A DNA stretch of 42,700 nucleotides, taken from the IMG/VR virus record IMGVR_UViG_3300033388_002348, positions 1 through 42,700 of that record; one strand, written 5' to 3'. The stretch's first letter is position 1, and the number at the start of each line of letters is the position of its first letter. A program made the position numbers and the translations under genes. The DNA comes from a virus. Below the pieces are notes generated by a model. That model was not told the DNA's origin and searched no databases. It worked only from the letters and a program-made list of their open reading frames with translations. Positions 7,188 to 41,829 of the stretch are shown piece after piece.

Positions 7188-7206
7188 TGTTACGCTCAAT
7201 GTAACA
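7188..7206. promoter_or_regulatory. Operator-like inverted repeat TGTTAC-N7-GTAACA
   Basis: A perfect 6-bp inverted repeat with a 7-bp centre. It overlaps the extended -10 of the leftward promoter (minus-strand TGTTACATT). A related site (TGTTAC-N7-GTATGA) at 7281-7299 overlaps the -10 of the rightward promoter and the regulator start. The arrangement suggests two operators bound by the adjacent Cro-like protein. Confidence 0.6.
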
Positions 7207-7226
7207 GACAAATTATCCCTTGTCAA
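7198..7226 (-). promoter_or_regulatory. Leftward early promoter
   Basis: On the minus strand TTGACA (7226-7221) is followed after 17 bases by TACATT (7203-7198), which is preceded by TG-N, an extended -10. It points into the leftward operon whose first start is at 7163. The -10 is embedded in the TGTTAC operator repeat, so repressor binding would block it. Confidence 0.6.
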
Positions 7227-7260
7227 GCGAATAATTAAATTAATTACACAAATAAAACCC

Positions 7261-7289
7261 TTGACATGATATTATCGGTATGTTACAAG
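7261..7289 (+). promoter_or_regulatory. Rightward promoter of the Cro-like regulator, probably leaderless
   Basis: TTGACA (7261-7266), a 17-base spacer and TACAAG (7284-7289) with an upstream TG-N extended -10. Six bases separate the -10 from the ATG at 7296, so transcription would start at or next to the initiation codon, as in the leaderless cI mRNA of lambda. The second operator half-site TGTTAC (7281-7286) lies on the -10. Confidence 0.6.
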
Positions 7290-7299
7290 TTGGGTATGA
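7281..7299. promoter_or_regulatory. Second operator-like site, TGTTAC-N7-GTATGA
   Basis: An imperfect copy of the site at 7188-7206 with the same 6-7-6 layout; the right half matches four of six bases. It covers the -10 and the start codon of the regulator, consistent with autoregulation. Confidence 0.45.
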
Positions 7300-7496
7300 A
7301 TAAAAGAATAATTACAGGAAAATGGTTAAAAGGCAAAAGATTTCAGCTTGAATTGAATCAAAAACAACTCGCTGAAAAGCTTGATATTCCACCCCAGACA
7401 TACAATAATTATGAACGTTATAAAACTATGCCGCCTGGATGGATTATTTTAAAGGTTTTTTGGCTAACCACCAAAGAAGAACCAGGAAAGAATTGA
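7296..7496 (+). CDS. Small XRE/Cro-like DNA-binding regulator, 66 aa
   Basis: The ATG at 7296 is preferred over an in-frame start at 7266 because the latter lies inside the promoter. Helix-turn-helix features run from about residues 16 to 40 (LNQKQLAEKLDIPPQTYNNYER), typical of Cro/CI proteins. There is no room for a CI-type oligomerisation domain, so it is Cro-like. The end (WIILKVFWLTTKEEPGKN) is shorter and more hydrophobic than usual for this family and might reflect an old frameshift. It sits between divergent promoters that carry matching operators and probably controls the switch between left and right transcription. Confidence 0.8.
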   Translation: MNKRIITGKWLKGKRFQLELNQKQLAEKLDIPPQTYNNYERYKTMPPGWIILKVFWLTTKEEPGKN

Positions 7497-7506
7497 ATGA
7501 TTGAAT

Positions 7507-7667
7507 ATGTGGGCTTTCGTTATTGGCCGAGTCCGGTATAGGCATTATTCTGTTTCTTAAAAAATAGGGAGTCATGCCCTGAAGATATAAGATAGGAATA
7601 AGACACTGGTTCAAATCCAGTATTTCGAAAAAATAAGGGGAGTGATCATAGCCTTAAAAGCCCACAT
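7507..7667 (+). ncRNA. Candidate structured RNA 1, closed by a perfect 11-bp stem
   Basis: ATGTGGGCTTT (7507-7517) pairs perfectly with AAAGCCCACAT (7657-7667). Inside are a tRNA T-arm look-alike (ACTGG, loop TTCAAAT, CCAGT at 7605-7621), AGGG/CCCT with a 7-base loop (7566-7580), TATTT/AAATA (7621-7635), TTATT/AATAA (7520-7524 with 7632-7636) and AAGG/CCTT (7635-7655). All frames are interrupted. It begins 11 bases after the Cro-like gene stop and would be on that transcript. No known family was recognised; the T-loop sequence fits the TTCRANY consensus but no acceptor or D arm accompanies it. Confidence 0.6.
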
Positions 7668-7691
7668 TTTTACTTAGGAGTATTTATGATT

Positions 7692-7753
7692 TGTGCAACT
7701 GAGGTGGGGTGGAGGACAAGGAGCTAATGACGATTAGCTGTGTAAGTTGCGCA
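7692..7753 (+). ncRNA. Candidate structured RNA 2, 62 nt
   Basis: TGTGCAACT (7692-7700) pairs with AGTTGCGCA (7745-7753) over nine positions including one G-U. Inside is a 7-bp hairpin AGCTAAT-GACG-ATTAGCT (7722-7739) and a G-rich strand (GAGGTGGGGTGGAGGAC). The region also contains two short overlapping reading frames with plausible ribosome binding sites: 13 codons from 7686 (MICATEVGWRTRS) and, coupled by TAATG, 25 codons from 7727 containing a CVSC motif. It could therefore be a leader-peptide region, a structured RNA or both. Confidence 0.45.
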
Positions 7754-7760
7754 TTTAATT

Positions 7761-7904
7761 TGTGGGCTATGTTATTTCACGGTAGCATCAGAAAAAGTAG
7801 GTGAACTTCTTACCCAATTGAGTGGAGCGAAAGCTTAGAAGCGATGAAGTTGGCTACAGTTAACATACCGTATAGACAGAACCACAAGAAAGAAGTAGCC
7901 CACA
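7761..7904 (+). ncRNA. Candidate structured RNA 3, closed by a 9-bp stem shared with RNA 1
   Basis: TGTGGGCTA (7761-7769) pairs with TAGCCCACA (7896-7904). Eight of these nine bases are the same as in the closing stem of RNA 1. Interior pairings include ACGGTA/TACCGT (7779-7784 with 7866-7871), the competing GTAGC/GCTAC (7782-7786 with 7853-7857), AAGT/ACTT, and a GAAA tetraloop hairpin AGC-GAAA-GCT (7827-7836). It ends 23 bases before the next gene start at 7928. Only a 24-codon frame without a good ribosome binding site is found inside. Function unknown. Confidence 0.55.
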
Positions 7905-7927
7905 TTTTAACCATGTAAGGAGTTAGT

Positions 7928-8122
7928 ATGATAATAAAAAAAATATTTACCAAAAAAGAAGCCAAGGAGCTATGGGAAAACAACCAAGTAAGATACGCTG
8001 AAATAGCTCACAGTTACCCGTGTTGTGATTTACCTACTGATACACAATGTGTGTGGTGTGATGAAGCCATAGCGAAAGAATGGGAGTGTCCTAAACTTAA
8101 AAAACAAGGATATTATGAGTGA
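7928..8122 (+). CDS. Small Cys-containing protein, 64 aa
   Basis: First protein gene after the RNA elements, with AAGGAG as ribosome binding site. A basic helical N-terminus (MIIKKIFTKKEAKELWE) precedes YPCCDLPTDTQCVWCDEAI and ECPKL; the Cys residues suggest a small zinc-binding site. Its stop overlaps the next start (TGATG), so translation is coupled. No family recognised. Confidence 0.6.
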   Translation: MIIKKIFTKKEAKELWENNQVRYAEIAHSYPCCDLPTDTQCVWCDEAIAKEWECPKLKKQGYYE

Positions 8123-8328: not shown

Positions 8329-8542
8329 ACTAATAATAGACAACCAAATGAGAGAAAAACTTGCTGTGAAATATTACAAAGCGTATAGCGTTCTGTGTCA
8401 CAGCCTCCAAGAGAATATCTCTGGCGGGGATGCAGAGGAATTAAGAGAAATAAGAATGTTAATTTTTAATAAATATAAAAAGTATGATCCTGATAATTCA
8501 TTTAACGTAACACAAATAGACAACCAGACAAAGGAGAAATAA
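8321..8542 (+). CDS. Hypothetical helical protein, 73 aa
   Basis: Overlaps the previous gene by eight bases. Mostly helical (QMREKLAVKYYKAYSVLCHSLQ; EELREIRMLIFNKYKKY). The last codons and the ribosome binding site for the next gene are contained in a 20-base sequence that recurs at the end of the following gene (see repeat 8517-8536). Function unknown. Confidence 0.55.
   Translation: MDKLIIDNQMREKLAVKYYKAYSVLCHSLQENISGGDAEELREIRMLIFNKYKKYDPDNSFNVTQIDNQTKEK
8517..8536 (+). repeat. 20-bp direct repeat, copy 1 (gene end plus ribosome binding site)
   Basis: TAGACAACCAGACAAAGGAG occurs here and again at 8700-8719. In both places it encodes the last residues DNQTKE of one gene and supplies AAGGAG for the next. 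A partial copy (TAGACAACCA) is at 8338-8347. The pattern suggests small-gene shuffling or duplication at gene boundaries. Confidence 0.85.
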
Positions 8543-8545
8543 AAA

Positions 8546-8725
8546 ATGGATAGTATGCCAGTAGATCAATGTTGCGTTTGTAACGATCCGCTTGACCATC
8601 AATACGCCGGATTCTGTGAATGCTGCAAAGGTGCTTTTTGTTGGACACATTGTGGTGACTGGGGTGTATTGGGGCATATGTGTAATAATTGTGGTGACTT
8701 AGACAACCAGACAAAGGAGACATAG
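8546..8725 (+). CDS. Cys-rich double zinc-finger protein, 59 aa
   Basis: Starts ten bases after AAGGAG. Nine Cys and three His residues are arranged as CCVC, CECC, CWTHC and CNNC with GH and DH residues between them, enough for two zinc sites in a RING-, B-box- or zinc-ribbon-like fold. The C-terminal LDNQTKET matches the end of the previous protein because of the 20-bp DNA repeat. The compact cross-brace-like Cys/His spacing is noteworthy for a phage, but no assignment is possible by eye. Confidence 0.65.
   Translation: MDSMPVDQCCVCNDPLDHQYAGFCECCKGAFCWTHCGDWGVLGHMCNNCGDLDNQTKET
8700..8719 (+). repeat. 20-bp direct repeat, copy 2
   Basis: Second exact copy of the sequence at 8517-8536, again forming the end of one gene and the ribosome binding site of the next. 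Confidence 0.85.
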
Positions 8726-8727
8726 AG

Positions 8728-8964
8728 ATGAAAACGTATAGTGTTTTGATGCCATTTGCCGGATCAATGACGTTGGAGGTTGAGGCTGAAAATGAAGATG
8801 ATGCTAAAGAAAAATTTTATGAAGAAATCGAACAGGTTAGTTTTAAGATGGCCGAAACTGATAAAAAGGGGATTGATGTTTGTTGGGACTTTCATGAAAA
8901 AATTGTTGGGGGCAATGTTTGTTACGCCGAGTGGAATAATATGGAAATTGAGGAGATAGAATAA
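8728..8964 (+). CDS. Small acidic protein, 78 aa
   Basis: MKTYSVLMPFAGSMTLEVEAENEDDAKEKFYEEI follows a beta-strand, beta-strand, helix pattern seen in many small phage proteins (an alternating strand pair followed by an acidic ENEDDAKEKF helix). Overlaps the next gene by one base (TAATG). Function unknown. Confidence 0.65.
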   Translation: MKTYSVLMPFAGSMTLEVEAENEDDAKEKFYEEIEQVSFKMAETDKKGIDVCWDFHEKIVGGNVCYAEWNNMEIEEIE

Positions 8965-16357: not shown

Positions 16358-16573
16358 ATGAAGGATATAATAAAAAATATATCGGGAATAGAAGAGTTAT
16401 CAACGGATACCACATTTGATGAATTGGGTTTTGATTCTTTAGACTTGGCTGAGACTATGATGCAAGCCGAGGATAAGTTCGGGATACAGATCCCAGATGA
16501 TGGCATTGAAGAAATAGACACGGTTCAGGATGCGATTGATTTGGTTGAATCGCTTAGAAAGGAGGGGATATGA
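16358..16573 (+). CDS. Acyl carrier protein
   Basis: 71 aa. FDELGFDSLDLAETMMQAEDKFGIQIPDD contains the phosphopantetheine attachment Ser (S27 in DSLD), followed by the acidic helix II and a C-terminal helix (VQDAIDLVESLRKEG) as in bacterial AcpP. It is slightly shorter than AcpP (about 78 aa). The host holo-ACP synthase would load the cofactor. No other lipid gene is visible in the window, so it may serve host fatty acid or lipid A enzymes, or act as a decoy. The end overlaps the following membrane protein gene by four bases (ATGA). Confidence 0.88.
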   Translation: MKDIIKNISGIEELSTDTTFDELGFDSLDLAETMMQAEDKFGIQIPDDGIEEIDTVQDAIDLVESLRKEGI

Positions 16574-22017: not shown

Positions 22018-22386
22018 ATGAAATTTACAAAGCCCGAACAAAAGGAAATGGTTGAAAGTCGTATAGAGTCTTCAGATCGTTTTAACGGCAATAAAGCTTT
22101 TGATACAGATTGTCAGTATCTTAGTTTTATTAACGTATCTGATTATAAGAAGGTAAATGAGGATCTTGTTAAATTATTAATAAAAAACACAAAGATACCG
22201 TTTAATACCCCGTATGAAATTCGGGCAAGTTTGGCGTGTGATTTTGGGCGGAAACAAGGAATATCAGTGTATTACAATCCTTATTTTAGAAAAGAACACG
22301 GTGATACTTTTCTAAACGTAGATTCAAAAACATGGGAAAGAGATCAGGATAAAAGTTACTATCTTATCGGAAGGGGTGTGATTTAA
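22018..22386 (+). CDS. Hypothetical protein, 122 aa, cytosolic member of a paralog pair
   Basis: AAAGGGGG precedes the ATG. The region VSDYKKVNEDLVKLLIKN ... YYNPYFRKEHGDTFLNVDSKTWE ... YYLIGRGVI lines up along most of its length with the protein encoded next (VSDYKNIDDKVIKVLTND ... YYSPEF ... LGRGVI), so the two arose by duplication. This copy has no signal peptide. Located between terminase and portal genes; function unknown. Confidence 0.7.
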   Translation: MKFTKPEQKEMVESRIESSDRFNGNKAFDTDCQYLSFINVSDYKKVNEDLVKLLIKNTKIPFNTPYEIRASLACDFGRKQGISVYYNPYFRKEHGDTFLNVDSKTWERDQDKSYYLIGRGVI

Positions 22387-22820
22387 TGGATATAACAAGA
22401 CGAGGGTTTTTAAAAGGCTGCTTGGCAGGGTTGGCTGCTGCTTCAATTCCTATTGGATTGATTGATAAGGTAAGCTCTGAACTAAATGTGGAAGAGGGCG
22501 GAAGTTTTTTAACTGCGAATAGGTTTGATCCAAATTCTGAATATGGCAATGCTATCCCGGTCAGTGACTATAAGAATATAGATGATAAGGTAATTAAAGT
22601 CTTAACGAACGATGCAAAAAGAATTCTACCAAAAGGTACGCCGTTTGAGCTTAGAGCTAAGATTTCAACCAATTGTGGCCGTTCATCAATGGGTATAGCT
22701 TGGTATTACAGCCCTGAGTTTAAAAATAAAAAAAGAAAGCTATTTTTGGAAATGAATAGCAAAGATTGGGAGTTTAATAAAAGTGGTGGTTTTATTCTAC
22801 TTGGAAGGGGTGTGATCTAA
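22386..22820 (+). CDS. Tat-signal protein, exported paralog of the preceding gene, 144 aa
   Basis: The N-terminus MDITRRGFLKG has a perfect twin-arginine motif (T-R-R-G-F-L-K at residues 4-10), followed by a moderately hydrophobic segment CLAGLAAASIPIGLI (11-26) and no strong lipobox. The mature part repeats the fold of the upstream protein: VSDYKNIDDKVIKVL, FELRAKISTNCGRSSMGIAWYYSPEF, FLEMNSKDWEF, LLGRGVI. A folded product would be sent across the host inner membrane. Its start overlaps the previous stop and its stop overlaps the next ATG. Phage-encoded Tat substrates appear rare; the substrate or target is unknown. Confidence 0.75.
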   Translation: MDITRRGFLKGCLAGLAAASIPIGLIDKVSSELNVEEGGSFLTANRFDPNSEYGNAIPVSDYKNIDDKVIKVLTNDAKRILPKGTPFELRAKISTNCGRSSMGIAWYYSPEFKNKKRKLFLEMNSKDWEFNKSGGFILLGRGVI

Positions 22821-27722: not shown

Positions 27723-28127
27723 ATGGTTGATAAAAGTTATGCATATGATCATCCTCAATATACGTCAAGAGGGTCAGCAACGATTCATTGCGCTGCTGGA
27801 ACAGTAAATCTTAGTGCTGCAAAGTTTATTGCATTTGCAGCAATGAAAGTAACCTCTATTCGCTCAGTCGTCGGAGTTGCAGGAACAGCCGATGCAAGCC
27901 AGATTAATGTTTTAAATGGCACGACATCATTCGCAACACTTGGTAATGGTACGGAGTCCGCAGGTGCGGCACTGACAGCAGTAGCTCCATCCGCAGCAAA
28001 TGCGACTCTTGCAAGAGGTGGTTATCTTGACTTTAAACGATCCGATACAAATGGTGCCACGATGGCTTGTGATGTTATTGTCGAGTACGAACTTGTACCG
28101 GGCGCACCGATTGTAATACAAAACTAA
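27723..28127 (+). CDS. Probable capsid decoration protein, copy 1, 134 aa
   Basis: AAGGAG ribosome binding site. Beta-rich sequence (ATIHCAAGTVNLSAAKFIAFAAMKVTSIRSVVGVAGT ... INVLNGTTSFATLGNGT ... ARGGYLDFKRSD ... VIVEYELVPGAPIVIQN). It is followed by a close homolog; the two share most residues, including the YDHPQYT motif near the start. Position after the capsid gene and the compact size suggest a head-surface (decoration) or head-fiber protein. The role is inferred. Confidence 0.65.
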   Translation: MVDKSYAYDHPQYTSRGSATIHCAAGTVNLSAAKFIAFAAMKVTSIRSVVGVAGTADASQINVLNGTTSFATLGNGTESAGAALTAVAPSAANATLARGGYLDFKRSDTNGATMACDVIVEYELVPGAPIVIQN

Positions 28128-28141
28128 AAGGAGGGTGAAAA

Positions 28142-28546
28142 ATGGCTGATAAAAGCATGAGGTACGATCACCCTCAATATACAGTGCGTAGGTGTGCAAC
28201 AATACATTGCGCTGCTGGGACGGTAGAGCTAAGTGCGGCTAAATTCATCGCATTTGCTGCTATGAAAGTTACATCTATTAGGTCTGTTGTCGGAGTGGCA
28301 GGAACACACGATGATAGTCAGATTAATGTCCTTAACGGTACCACGTCTTTTGCGACACTTGGAAATGGAACCGCAGTAGCAGGAGCAGCATTAACGGCTA
28401 TAAATCCGGATGCAGCAGATGCAACATTAGCCCGTGGCGGTTATCTTGATTTTCAAAGGTCGGCTGCTGAGGGAGAGACAATGACATGTGATGCAATCGT
28501 TGAATATGAGGTAATACCTCTTTCGCCGGTTGTAATACAAGCATAA
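28142..28546 (+). CDS. Probable capsid decoration protein, copy 2, 134 aa
   Basis: Same length as the preceding protein and about three-quarters identical by eye; differences cluster in TADASQ/THDDSQ, the ESAGAALTAVAPSAAN / AVAGAALTAINPDAAD segment and the C-terminus. A strong ribosome binding site (AGGAGG) lies upstream. Tandem duplication may supply two variants to the virion surface, a mixed shell or a heterotypic complex. Confidence 0.65.
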   Translation: MADKSMRYDHPQYTVRRCATIHCAAGTVELSAAKFIAFAAMKVTSIRSVVGVAGTHDDSQINVLNGTTSFATLGNGTAVAGAALTAINPDAADATLARGGYLDFQRSAAEGETMTCDAIVEYEVIPLSPVVIQA

Positions 28547-36135: not shown

Positions 36136-39100
36136 ATGCCACAAAAATTAGAAAACGACCCTGAGTTCAGAGCGTTACCTGATGGGGATAAAAAAATAGT
36201 TTATCTTAGCTTTTTTGATAAAAAGATTGCAGATGATGAATTTCGGTCACTTGATCCTCAGACACAGAATGCTGTTAAAGAGAATTATTTAAGCCGATAT
36301 AATCTATCTCTGCAAGAACCAGAACCAGAACCGGGTTTATTCCGAAGGGCTGGGGATGCCGCTTTGGGTGGCATTGATAAAGTTATTGAAGCAATCACCC
36401 CGGAAACTTTATCAGATGAGCTTTCAGACGACCTTCAGGACTCCAAGGTTGAACGATCTGCTAAAATAGACGACTCTATAAGTGACAAGTTGTTTGTTGC
36501 TCATGAACAGCAAATCCCGGAGCCAGAAAAAGGGTTTTTCGGTAAAAGGATACAAGTCGCCAAGAATGTAGGAACTCAAGCAGCCTTGGGCATTAAAGAT
36601 TTAGTTACTTCTGGGCTTGCCGAAGTAGAAGGTTTATCTGAGAACGATTTAAATTCAAAAGCGAAAGAAATAATAGACACATTTGAGTCTGAAAAAACTA
36701 TATCAGAAGAACCAACAGCCGCCATGATAAATAGGCCGATTGGTTTTAAACCACAGCTTGCTATGTTGGAGGTCGCAAAACTAAGTGACGACCAAAAAAA
36801 GATGTTAGCTAATCCGAATATTACAAAGGAAGAAAAACAGAAAGCAATATTAAACTATTTAAAGGAAAATCAAGCTTCTTCAGTACAAAATTATAAAAAA
36901 GTTATATCCAAATTCCCAAAAGAACCTGACAAGGAATTTGAAGGTGGTTTCCTTGGATTTATGGAAGATGTTACAACAACTCTTCCAAGATCAGCCGCAA
37001 GTATGGCTGCTACTGCCGTGAATGTACCATTAGGGGCAAATTTAATATATAGACAAACGCTTGGGTCAGCGTACCAAAAGCACATTGATAAAGGCATTGC
37101 GCCAGATGTGGCAAAGGATGCGGCAAATTTAGAATCAATAATATCCACTCCCTTAGAAACTTTTGGCAATATTTTCGGTTTAAAATTAATCAAAGGTGCT
37201 GCCGGGGCTATGATTGCAAAAACAGGGCTTGGAAAAAAGGCCACCGCATTAATCAGCAGGATATTATTATCATCTGCCGGCGGTGGGGCTGAAGAATATT
37301 TGCAAGCTCATTCTGAAGCTCTTGGAGATATTTACGCAGAAGATCCCGAAGCGTCTGCGGATGAAATGTTTGAGAAGTTTAAAGAAAAGGTCAGTACATC
37401 TGAATTTCAAAAAGGCGCTGGAAGGCAATTTGCTGTTGGTGCAGTGGCAGAAGGGTTGTTCCCATTGGCAGGGGCGGCTTTTTCTCAACAACAGGCACAA
37501 AAAGCAGGGCTTCCCGTTCCTCAAGAAACCGTTAAAGAAACCATTGAAGAGCCTAAAGAAGCGGCACCAGTTCAAGCAGAGCCTATCCAAGAGGCTCAAC
37601 CTGAAGTTACAGAAGCACCGCCGGTCACTGAGCAAATAGTCGAGCAAGAAGAAACTCCGGCAGAGGCACCACAAAAAGCCCAAGAAATAAATTTAAAGCT
37701 TGAAAAGAACCGTGCCGATATAAAAGCTATAAACAAAAAGAAAGTCTCTGATATGACGGAGAACGAAAAAGACATCGCCCTACATAGAAGCCAGATTACA
37801 GGTCTTAAAAATAGAAGGGCATACAATGAGGGTGCGAACGAAAGGAAAAAGCATCAATTTTTTGTTGACGCTAATTCTTTGAAATGGTTTAATGATAATA
37901 TAAGTCATGAAGCTGGAAACAAATTGCTTGAGTCAATCGGCGACTCAATACTCACAACAGAAATTGCAGATAGTGCTTATCATAGTTCAGGAGATGAATT
38001 TATAGTTGAGGGGGATGACCTTCAATTTGTAAACAACGAGTTAAAAAAAGCCAACGATTGGCTATTAACTAACCCTCTTCAGTTTGAAATGGAAGATGGG
38101 TCAAAGGTATCAATACCAGCGAGGTTTGAATATGGCACAGGAAAAACTCTTGAAGAAGCAGACAAAGATCTTATCAGGGCAAAAACTGAAGCTGAAACTC
38201 TTGGGATTAGGTCAGCAAGGGGCAAAACCCCTGCCGGTTTTACTGTCAGAGATGAAGCCAAAGGCGATTTGGATCAAAGGGGAGAGGTTCAAGCTGAAAT
38301 AACGAAGCCCACCGGACAGAAAGAGGATGTTCGTACCGGTGTACGGGAAAAAGAAAAAGTAACGTCAGCATTAAGATTAATGTTGGAAGAATCCGAGGGG
38401 AGTCAAACAAAATCTTCTTTCGTTGATGAAAGCGGGAAAAGGCAGTTTGTAAAAGCGTCCACTCCAAACTGGATGAAAGAAATTAACGAGGTCGCCAAAC
38501 TAAATAAAGATAGATTTTTTTCACGTTCTGAAATTAAAACCCTTCTTAATAAAGAGATATCTGGGCAACTCCTAACCCAAAAACAACAAAACAGATTTTT
38601 ATATTTGTCTGAGGCTGCTACAAAAATAAGTAAAACAGATCCAGACATAGTAAGCCAGCAAGATGCCGATTTATTAGAAAAGGAAGGATTTAAAATAATT
38701 GGCAAGAAAGAAACTGCTGGAGATTTGAACGCCGGCGACAAATTTTTCGGAACGGTTGACGGTGAAAAAGATACATACACTGTTAAAAAAATAGACAAAG
38801 ACGGAACTGTACATTTAATTAATGGGGTAAAAAAAGAACTTGATATATTTGACCAGGTTGATATTGTCGGAATAAAAAAGGCAAAAAAAGCCACCCCACA
38901 AACTGCATTTGCAGCCATTGGTAAAGCTCCGCAAAAAGCCGAAGGTAGACCAAGCGAGCTTAAAAAGCCACAATTAAAACCGTTAATTACGACATCTCAG
39001 AAGAAAAATATCCAGAAGAAAAAAGAGATAAAGAAAAAACAACTTGATATCACATCGGCAAAAGAGGCCAGAGAAGGCATCCAAACTATGATCAGAGACA

Positions 39101-41829
39101 GGCGGCATAGTCTGAATCTTGCATCTTACGAAACAAATCTTTTTATAAATGAGATTGAGCAGTCAACCACCAAGGCACAGCGGGAAGCTTTGCCGTTTAT
39201 TATTGAAAAAACAGGCGTTCCAAAAGAACTGAAACGACCTGATATAGAAAAAGCATATGATAAAAACAAAGAACATCTTAATGAAATAGCTTCACAGGTC
39301 CGAACACATTTTAATAAAAGCTGGCAGAAGATGAAAGAACACATTCCGGATATGTCAGCACAAGAAATTGAAAACTATGTAACCCATATATGGGATATCC
39401 CCCGAAGCAAACAACAAGAAGTTACAAACTGGTTTACAACCCGGAATCGATTCTTAAAGAAACGATACATAGAAACACTTGAAAAGGGTATAACCGAATT
39501 AGGTTTAAAGCCTAAAGTCCTGGATATCAGTGAAATAATAAGAGTTCATGATGCTGTCACAAACAAAGCGATCGAAAACGCTAAATTTGTTGAAGATCTA
39601 AAAGGGCTTAAAAAAGATGGCGTTTCTCTTATGGAACGATCTGATAAAGCCCCTCAAGATTGGGTTATGATCGACCATCCAGCACTAAGAAAAGGACTTG
39701 TTATTCCTGGTGATATCAAGACCGGTGAAAAGATTTCTCCACAACTTCAAGACATATTGACCGAGATGGGTGTAGCAATAGGCCGTAGAATATCACCAAA
39801 GGCTTTTGGTAAGGCAACCACAAAACTTGGTGAGTACCGAAGGGGAGAGCAGCCAGAAGTTAGATTTCAAAGGTTTATGGAGAATAAGACGATTGCCCAT
39901 GAAATCGGTCATCATATCGATACTGTTCTTAATCTTGGTGACCAATTTTTACAAAAACATAAAACAGAACTTTACGAATTAAATAAAAAAAGAATTAAAG
40001 ACTTCCCAGGAAAAGAAAGATATACAGAATCTACCGAGGAACAAATTGCGGAAGCATTTGCCTATCTATTCACAAATCCGGAACAAATGCAGAAAGTAGC
40101 ACCTACCTTGATGGCCGATCTATTAAATAGATTAAAAGAGGATGGCACACTATCAAAGCTTGTGGATTTTGATTTTGAGAGAAATGCGAAAAACTTAATT
40201 GAAGAGCAACTTAATACATTGGTCCAACTACCTGTTAAGGTTCATCCTGATTTAGCCAAACCTTTAAAGGTTGTGTTCGAAAGCAGATTTGACCATCCGG
40301 CAATAAAAGCGTTTGAAAATATATCAGGCGTTTTGAAAAAGACAAGCCTTAGTATATCTTTATTTCACCATATGGCACTTGGCGAAACAGGTGTGGCTAC
40401 AATCGGACTCCCACGGATAGCAAATATTTATCTTAACCCGGTAAAAATATATAACGCCTTGGTCAGGAATCAATTTGATGTATATAAAAATGAGCCACTT
40501 GCAAGGGACGCAATATCACACGGTGTACAGCTTGGAGCTACTTCTGATATACCTGTTCAAAAGATTCAAAAATTTCTGAATGATTTTGCATCTAAGACAA
40601 AAAATATTGTAGTTGTGAATAGAGCTACAAAACTTCTCAGTACGTTCAATGCAAAATGGGATTCAGCTTTATGGGACTATCTGCATGATACCCTTAAATT
40701 ATACGCCTTTGAATCATTAAGCAGCAAGATTGACCCGAAACTCGATCAGAAAAAAGCCAAGCAAGAAGTAGCTCAATTGGTCAATGACACATTCGGTGGG
40801 CAGAATTGGGATACATTAATGGTCAGCCCAAAGACCCAACAGGTTATGTCTTGGATGCTGTTAAGCCCTGATTGGACGATTTCAACCTTAAGACAGGCTT
40901 TGGCACCCACTGGTATAGGTTCAATATATAAAGAAACTGCTGGCGTTAGGCGGCGTGCTGGGGTGATGTTTTGGCTAAAGGCTGGGTTATATTTTGGAGT
41001 GGGTATTAATTTACTAAATATGGCCTTTAGGAGAGATGATGAGGAAGAAAATCCAGAGTTCTATAAAAGCAAGAAAAAAGGTAAGCTTGAACAAACTATG
41101 ATCGGGAATGCATTGGGCCATCAATCACATTTATTTGCCGGAAGGTATGAGGACGGAAGAGAACGATATATTAGATGGGGAAAACAGTTCAGGGAGCTAC
41201 CGGAGATGTTTTTTGAAGATGTTGGTTTTAGTCCGATCAGTGCGTCATTAAAAAAGATTGGTGGTAAGATGAATCCATTATTACAAATTACATCACAGAT
41301 AGCAACCGGGCATACATTATCAGGGTTTAAAAATGACGATGTTTACGGAAAAAAAGGATGGGATAAAACTTTCGGTATATTTAAAACTCTTTTAAAATCA
41401 CCGCTTCCGTTTAGTTCGAGGACGTTACTTTCCGAGCGGGCTGAATTTCATATAAGCGATATAGCACTCCCAAGCTCAAAGGGAATGAGCAGATATAAAA
41501 GCGTTGAGTTATTTAAAACAGCTATTATAAAACAGGATGAACAATTATTGCAGGAAGTCTATCAGGATACACTTGAAAACAATCTACCAGCGTATACTTT
41601 ATTTACGGCTGCATTGACATCATTAAAAGCTGAAGAATCGAGAGACTTCAACAGAGATTTAAAGGTAATAGAAGATATACAGAAAAGACTTCCGCTTTCC
41701 GATATTAAAGAAGCTGAAAGAGTTCAGAGAAAAATGAAACGGATGGCAAGGGAAGAGGTTGACAAGAAAGCTGGAATTAAACTACTAGAAACAGCGATTG
41801 AAGAATCGAAACAATATCAGGAGGAATAA
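36136..41829 (+). CDS. Giant ejection protein (gp16-position) with GGDEF-like and HExxH metallopeptidase domains
   Basis: 1,897 aa. It begins with EFRALPDGDKKIVYLSFFDKKIADDEFRSL, common in phage ejection proteins. Two hydrophobic/Gly-Ala stretches (around 280-300 and 340-380) may insert into membranes. Residues about 545-700 form a GGDEF-like domain: ITGLKNRRAYNE, VDANSLKWFNDNISHEAGNKLLESI, YHSSGDEFIVEG (SGDEF in place of GGDEF). Around 1253 AHEIGHHID is a zincin HExxH motif, with EEQIAEAFAYLF near 1300 supplying the third ligand. A membrane segment (WLKAGLYFGVGINLLNMAF) lies near 1615. The order and position equal P22 gene 16, but the size and enzyme domains recall polyvalent phage proteins injected with DNA. 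Confidence 0.8.
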   Translation: MPQKLENDPEFRALPDGDKKIVYLSFFDKKIADDEFRSLDPQTQNAVKENYLSRYNLSLQEPEPEPGLFRRAGDAALGGIDKVIEAITPETLSDELSDDLQDSKVERSAKIDDSISDKLFVAHEQQIPEPEKGFFGKRIQVAKNVGTQAALGIKDLVTSGLAEVEGLSENDLNSKAKEIIDTFESEKTISEEPTAAMINRPIGFKPQLAMLEVAKLSDDQKKMLANPNITKEEKQKAILNYLKENQASSVQNYKKVISKFPKEPDKEFEGGFLGFMEDVTTTLPRSAASMAATAVNVPLGANLIYRQTLGSAYQKHIDKGIAPDVAKDAANLESIISTPLETFGNIFGLKLIKGAAGAMIAKTGLGKKATALISRILLSSAGGGAEEYLQAHSEALGDIYAEDPEASADEMFEKFKEKVSTSEFQKGAGRQFAVGAVAEGLFPLAGAAFSQQQAQKAGLPVPQETVKETIEEPKEAAPVQAEPIQEAQPEVTEAPPVTEQIVEQEETPAEAPQKAQEINLKLEKNRADIKAINKKKVSDMTENEKDIALHRSQITGLKNRRAYNEGANERKKHQFFVDANSLKWFNDNISHEAGNKLLESIGDSILTTEIADSAYHSSGDEFIVEGDDLQFVNNELKKANDWLLTNPLQFEMEDGSKVSIPARFEYGTGKTLEEADKDLIRAKTEAETLGIRSARGKTPAGFTVRDEAKGDLDQRGEVQAEITKPTGQKEDVRTGVREKEKVTSALRLMLEESEGSQTKSSFVDESGKRQFVKASTPNWMKEINEVAKLNKDRFFSRSEIKTLLNKEISGQLLTQKQQNRFLYLSEAATKISKTDPDIVSQQDADLLEKEGFKIIGKKETAGDLNAGDKFFGTVDGEKDTYTVKKIDKDGTVHLINGVKKELDIFDQVDIVGIKKAKKATPQTAFAAIGKAPQKAEGRPSELKKPQLKPLITTSQKKNIQKKKEIKKKQLDITSAKEAREGIQTMIRDRRHSLNLASYETNLFINEIEQSTTKAQREALPFIIEKTGVPKELKRPDIEKAYDKNKEHLNEIASQVRTHFNKSWQKMKEHIPDMSAQEIENYVTHIWDIPRSKQQEVTNWFTTRNRFLKKRYIETLEKGITELGLKPKVLDISEIIRVHDAVTNKAIENAKFVEDLKGLKKDGVSLMERSDKAPQDWVMIDHPALRKGLVIPGDIKTGEKISPQLQDILTEMGVAIGRRISPKAFGKATTKLGEYRRGEQPEVRFQRFMENKTIAHEIGHHIDTVLNLGDQFLQKHKTELYELNKKRIKDFPGKERYTESTEEQIAEAFAYLFTNPEQMQKVAPTLMADLLNRLKEDGTLSKLVDFDFERNAKNLIEEQLNTLVQLPVKVHPDLAKPLKVVFESRFDHPAIKAFENISGVLKKTSLSISLFHHMALGETGVATIGLPRIANIYLNPVKIYNALVRNQFDVYKNEPLARDAISHGVQLGATSDIPVQKIQKFLNDFASKTKNIVVVNRATKLLSTFNAKWDSALWDYLHDTLKLYAFESLSSKIDPKLDQKKAKQEVAQLVNDTFGGQNWDTLMVSPKTQQVMSWMLLSPDWTISTLRQALAPTGIGSIYKETAGVRRRAGVMFWLKAGLYFGVGINLLNMAFRRDDEEENPEFYKSKKKGKLEQTMIGNALGHQSHLFAGRYEDGRERYIRWGKQFRELPEMFFEDVGFSPISASLKKIGGKMNPLLQITSQIATGHTLSGFKNDDVYGKKGWDKTFGIFKTLLKSPLPFSSRTLLSERAEFHISDIALPSSKGMSRYKSVELFKTAIIKQDEQLLQEVYQDTLENNLPAYTLFTAALTSLKAEESRDFNRDLKVIEDIQKRLPLSDIKEAERVQRKMKRMAREEVDKKAGIKLLETAIEESKQYQEE

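Follow-up and report, generated by a model that had tools for sequence, protein, structure and literature searches.

The DNA analysed here, referred to below as the window, is the 42.7-kb virus record IMGVR_UViG_3300033388_002348 (positions 1–42,700), from an uncultured phage. It encodes a portal protein of the SU10 type and a terminase found in just a handful of viral contigs, and none of 50,697 phage records proved to be closely related. The genes to the left of position 7226 are read leftward and include those for a holin, an endolysin, a YqaJ exonuclease and SSB, and the genes to the right are read rightward, with a Cro-like helix-turn-helix gene first and a DnaD-like loader and a DnaB helicase later. 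The control region from which they diverge contains an imperfect inverted repeat of 37 nt in which TTGACA and TGTTACA elements are mirrored. The elements of this palindrome (7200–7287) are likely to be operators of the Cro-like protein, and the early transcript crossing 7504–7910 is presumed to arise within the control region. The candidate RNA lies between the Cro-like gene, which ends at 7496, and the gene that starts at 7928, in the following arrangement.

7198–7289, divergent control region, with a TTGACA promoter-like site on the minus strand (7226–7198) and TTGACA at 7261 on the plus strand
7296–7496, plus strand, Cro-like helix-turn-helix gene opening the rightward operon (Pfam HTH_3, E = 8.1e-08)
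7504–7670, plus strand, domain 1, a tRNA-like core within the 11-bp closing stem 7507–7517/7657–7667 (MFE z = -2.51)
7508–7515, plus strand, TGTGGGCT arm 1
7517–7629, plus strand, tRNA-like cloverleaf, acceptor 7517–7523/7622–7628, no CCA encoded
7526–7543, plus strand, D arm with a 3-bp stem and equivalents of A14, G15 and G18G19 (U8 equivalent at 7524)
7545–7601, plus strand, expanded anticodon arm of stacked stems of 7, 5 and 5 pairs (z = -1.9)
7605–7621, plus strand, perfect T arm, ACUGG-UUCAAAU-CCAGU, preceded by a tRNA-like variable loop
7659–7666, minus strand, TGTGGGCT arm 2, closing domain 1 and followed by TTTTT
7686–7727, plus strand, possible micro-ORF 1 (13 aa, MICATEVGWRTRS), weak, with GGAG 5 nt upstream
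7692–7753, plus strand, domain 2, with the 9-position stem 7692–7700/7745–7753 (z = -2.15)
7727–7804, plus strand, possible micro-ORF 2 (25 aa, MTISCVSCAFNLWAMLFHGSIRKSR), with AAGGAG 3 nt upstream and a codon score unlike that of phage genes
7755–7910, plus strand, domain 3, a rod-like fold closed by 7761–7769/7896–7904 (z = -3.08)
7761–7768, plus strand, TGTGGGCT arm 3
7825–7836, GAAA tetraloop hairpin in domain 3
7897–7904, minus strand, TGTGGGCT arm 4, closing domain 3 and followed by TTTT
7928–8122, plus strand, next gene of the operon (64 aa, no family)

Several other features of the genome were recorded. The leader AGACAACCAGACAAAGGAGA, found at 8519–8548 and again at 8701–8730 ahead of the start codons of two consecutive small genes, is a repeated translation start cassette. 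The early region also carries an acyl carrier protein gene at 16358–16573 (PHROG 5934, E = 1.5e-15). Two tandem gene pairs of unknown function (27723–28127 with 28142–28546, and 22018–22386 with 22386–22820) are apparently paralogous, and the virion gene region encodes a 1897-aa protein (36136–41829) with a weak GGDEF-like match at residues 553–624 (E = 4e-4, under the Pfam cut-off).

A preliminary description of the locus had proposed that 7507–7904 is free of genes and holds three consecutive stem-sealed RNA domains. The first part of this proposal is borne out: no open reading frame of at least 60 aa lies between 7496 and 7928, sliding codon scores revealed phage-type codon usage in no frame of the stretch on either strand, and 7497–7927 accordingly contains neither an ordinary gene nor a coding frame by codon score.

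When the whole window was compared with all 4227 Rfam families, as had been suggested, the only match over threshold was to the tRNA family RF00005 at 7517–7629 (31.1 bits against a gathering threshold of 29, E = 0.011), and no other family came near its threshold. The alignment covers the full model and places an insertion of 44 nt in the anticodon region. The acceptor helix has five of seven pairs and two U–U mismatches, where a tRNA has seven pairs, and an arm of 57 nt stands in the position of the 7-nt anticodon loop. In the MFE fold an alternative hairpin competes with the D arm, and the equivalent of C48 is present before the T stem. Since the anticodon loop and a full acceptor are missing from an element that nevertheless passes the family threshold, it is named tRNA-like rather than tRNA. 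The T-arm look-alike noticed earlier is real, but it was an incomplete view of the element, as the T arm belongs to a complete cloverleaf core.

ARAGORN at its default settings called no tRNA in the window, and with relaxed thresholds it recovered this cloverleaf, reading 40 nt of the anticodon loop as an insertion. When the T arm and the 3' acceptor strand were held fixed and the upstream 109 nt were shuffled, the D-arm invariants and acceptor pairing reappeared in 137 of 20,000 trials, and in 16 of them when the base of the anticodon arm was also present. A purpose-written detector of expanded-arm cloverleaves found the window and had no match in 3.4 Mb of shuffled sequence, its only other matches in real loci being two artefacts, each joining two neighbouring tRNAs. 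The criteria of both the shuffle test and the detector were chosen after the sequence had been seen, and the case for the cloverleaf therefore rests mainly on the Rfam match. The tRNA-like cloverleaf of domain 1 exceeds chance.

All three proposed stems exist at 7507–7517/7657–7667 (11 bp), 7692–7700/7745–7753 (9 positions) and 7761–7769/7896–7904 (9 bp), and the inner helices described with them, the T arm and the GNRA (GAAA) hairpin, are both present. As sealing elements they carry no weight alone, because such stems are as frequent in shuffled windows: counting perfect stems with loops no longer than 200 nt, the window has 49 of 9 bp, 14 of 10 bp and 3 of 11 bp, and dinucleotide shuffles have 54.6, 14.4 and 5.3. 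Folding is moderately stronger than in shuffles (MFE z = -2.1 for the whole 421-nt stretch), and in a scan of 160-nt windows over the whole sequence (n = 536) the region ranks 2nd to 34th only if framed on the domains and is otherwise unremarkable. In the fold from the promoter side (7290–7930) the closing stems of domains 1 and 3 form with a pair probability of about 1, and partition folding of the isolated 421-nt stretch (7500–7920) is split between closure of arm 3 with arm 4 and closure of arm 1 with arm 4. Domain 2, whose inner 7-bp hairpin buries the start codon at 7727, is retained in neither fold. Of the three back-to-back domains, then, what stands is a noncoding and probably structured region; the sealing stems occur at chance frequency and domain 2 is lost in the full-transcript fold. 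The stretch showed neither a promoter nor a terminator of the RNA's own.

Domains 1 and 3 are closed by stems of one and the same sequence, TGTGGGCT/AGCCCACA. The octamer TGTGGGCT occurs four times in 42.7 kb, each copy being one of the closing arms, and four copies were obtained in none of 100 shuffles. Its flanks also agree (ATTgAATaTGTGGGCT/ATTtAATtTGTGGGCT and AGCCCACATTTTtAC/AGCCCACATTTTaAC), and the score of the 25 nt common to the two domains was reached by 36 of 2000 shuffles. The sharing of this closing octamer exceeds chance. The idea that domains 1 and 3 are duplicates of each other was rejected, since only their ends agree and their interiors are unlike.

No homolog of the stretch was found by blastn in phage and plasmid records, nor in viral contigs, in 59 related records or in bacterial genomes, which were scanned once with a pattern. 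The records of the terminase relatives contain no matching stretch, and their early regions share with the window just a handful of proteins, of weak similarity. When a covariance model of domain 1 was applied to these relatives and to 49 major capsid relatives, it returned no homolog. Because such a model, built from a single sequence, is weak at long range, this absence is not proof. The tRNAs matched by model R1 come mostly from loci chosen for a shared T-arm 17-mer and therefore give biased support. Neighbouring proteins used as bait led to no close relative. Where the T-arm 17-mer occurred in viral contigs, it belonged to an ordinary tRNA or to a protein gene. A pattern combining the closing stem and the T arm had no match in viral contigs and three in bacterial genomes, all of them ordinary tRNAs with chance flanks, and a pattern of the closing arms plus TTTT had one match, a coincidence inside a protein-coding frame that, read by eye, we take to be the start of a UDP-galactopyranose mutase.

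We tentatively interpret 7504–7910, as the best of several readings that each fall short of an even chance, as an orphan structured noncoding RNA of the rightward early transcript, containing a tRNA mimic in its own stem and probably cut out of that transcript. The region is noncoding and has a tRNA-like core and shared closing stems; from these we infer its transcription, processing, partner and role as follows. In domain 1 the D arm, T arm and acceptor helix would form a tRNA-like elbow, with a long helical arm replacing the anticodon and the 11-bp stem closing the whole, and the second, rod-shaped domain (domain 3) would be closed by the same stem sequence. The early transcript would fold into both closed domains, and the tRNA-like fold may attract host tRNA enzymes (RNase P to the point where the cloverleaf begins, RNase III to the closing stems, or both), so that the RNA would be excised. 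The excised RNA could then be a stable molecule that decoys or tethers a host protein able to recognize the tRNA elbow, possibly a tRNA-processing, tRNA-modifying or tRNA-targeting defence enzyme. Few tRNA mimics are known in bacteria and phages (tmRNA and the Y RNAs). Several defences against phages act by cutting tRNAs, and an RNA of phage origin that has the elbow of a tRNA but lacks the anticodon would naturally suggest itself as a decoy.

Nearly as much is explained if an ordinary phage tRNA gene, its anticodon loop interrupted by some 40 inserted nt, has decayed and is on the way to being lost, with spacer making up the remainder of the stretch, a history that we regard as conceivable, if on the unlikely side. 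In its variable loop and T arm the element is similar to ordinary phage tRNAs (TAAGACACTGGTTCAAATCCAGTATTTC compared with TAAGTCACTGGTTCAAATCCAGTATTTC in the tRNA-Val of loci L018, L019, L014 and L011), the acceptor is mismatched and lacks CCA, and removal of 40–45 nt in silico restores a recognizable tRNA-Asn(GUU) or similar. Random decay, however, would not favour the pattern seen: every tertiary-core position is intact, the parts required in charging and decoding are the ones impaired, and the pairing of the inserted arm continues that of the anticodon stem in register. Nor was a closely related phage with an intact gene found, the terminase relatives searched having no tRNA except for one record (G010). 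It is because the tertiary-core tRNA positions are kept, and charging (acceptor, CCA) and decoding (anticodon) are lost, that a processed early RNA with a protein-binding elbow is favoured.

In lambdoid phages, put RNA or nut sites control readthrough. The stretch could likewise be a cis-acting leader in which four interchangeable TGTGGGCT/AGCCCACA arms, through closures 1–2 plus 3–4 or 1–4, control readthrough from the Cro-like gene to the replication genes. Its position between the cro-like gene and the early genes, the runs of U after arms 2 and 4 and the division of the partition folding between closures 3–4 and 1–4 are consistent with such a role, and putR of HK022 lies about 270 nt downstream of its promoter start (PMC9378689). 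We nevertheless consider a leader unlikely, as put RNAs are about 70 nt long with two stem-loops, no terminator was found on the plus strand of the stretch and a tRNA-like core is unnecessary for the control of readthrough.

That the stretch is an unstructured spacer, with a cloverleaf and stems that are coincidences picked by eye, would agree with closing stems at chance frequency, a folding rank that is unremarkable in most frames and the lack of homologs, yet it is very unlikely given a tRNA match that passed the curated Rfam threshold when the entire window was searched with every family and a closing octamer whose four copies are confined to the stretch. Still less probable is a translationally coupled pair of micro-ORFs (13 and 25 aa) in domain 2, with the surrounding folds as mRNA structure: both frames have good ribosome-binding sites, they overlap as TAATG with the second start codon buried in the 7-bp hairpin and the second product would be hydrophobic with a basic tail, but two such starts appear in 84 of 2000 shuffles, the codon score of the 25-aa frame is low, and the cloverleaf and domain 3 are left unexplained. 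A phage attachment site (attP in a tRNA gene) was rejected because a family search for tyrosine recombinases (PF00589) found none in the phage and no integrase family turned up among the proteins scanned, and a group I intron, ribozyme or riboswitch was rejected for want of an Rfam match.

Returning to the early noncoding RNA that we prefer, its known counterparts can be compared part by part. With the tRNA family it has in common an acceptor helix, a D arm with the invariants and a perfect T arm, in the usual order and with a score over the gathering threshold, whereas the long helical arm in place of the anticodon loop, the two acceptor mismatches, the missing CCA and the outer enclosing stem set it apart. 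The large phage and prophage noncoding RNAs GOLLD (>800 nt) and ROOL (659 nt) often lie near tRNAs (PMC12286853). The resemblance to them that had been raised is not sustained beyond the fact of being a phage noncoding RNA: the stretch is shorter than either, has no tRNA island and gave no family match up to E = 5 in 7400–8000. The put RNA of HK022 is likewise a structured RNA in a phage early rightward transcript (PMC9378689), but it comprises about 70 nt in two stem-loops, and the stretch matches no such family.

The bacterial Y RNA YrlA, of 90–150 nt, has a tRNA-like domain enclosed by a long stem formed by the 5' and 3' ends, and the tRNA-like domains of such mimics are recognized by tRNA enzymes or other proteins (PMC8394870). 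In broadly the same manner, the stem 7507–7517/7657–7667 encloses the tRNA-like 7517–7629 within a domain 1 of about 161 nt, although domain 1 matches no Y RNA family at E = 5. No Ro60/Rsr gene (TROVE, PF05731) was found in the record. A tRNA elbow and a long helix replacing the anticodon arm are also found in tmRNA, from which the stretch differs in having no tag reading frame, alanine acceptor or CCA; a search of the window for tmRNA with ARAGORN returned nothing. By the tests applied, the stretch would fall outside GOLLD, ROOL, YrlA and tmRNA.

A tRNA with an expanded anticodon arm heads an array of 21 tRNAs in record G010 (L067:13927–14047), a related phage with a terminase 44% identical to that of the window. 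Its acceptor, D and T arms are perfect, the anticodon loop is replaced by about 60 nt that include a UCC-like hairpin, and it scores 48 bits against the Rfam tRNA model; ARAGORN missed it. As its sequence and setting differ from those of 7517–7629, we treat it as an independent case and not as a homolog. When the anticodon arm is expanded, a tRNA-like RNA can escape the annotation of phage tRNAs, and this is a second, independent case of such an RNA in a related phage. It is a doubtful extension that the stretch represents a new class of phage noncoding RNA, made early and built of cassettes with a common closing stem, one of them an expanded-anticodon-arm tRNA mimic engaging host enzymes that handle tRNAs or cut them in defence. 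A kept core together with lost charging and decoding parts would in any case be the pattern of a tRNA mimic, as in tmRNA or the Y RNAs.
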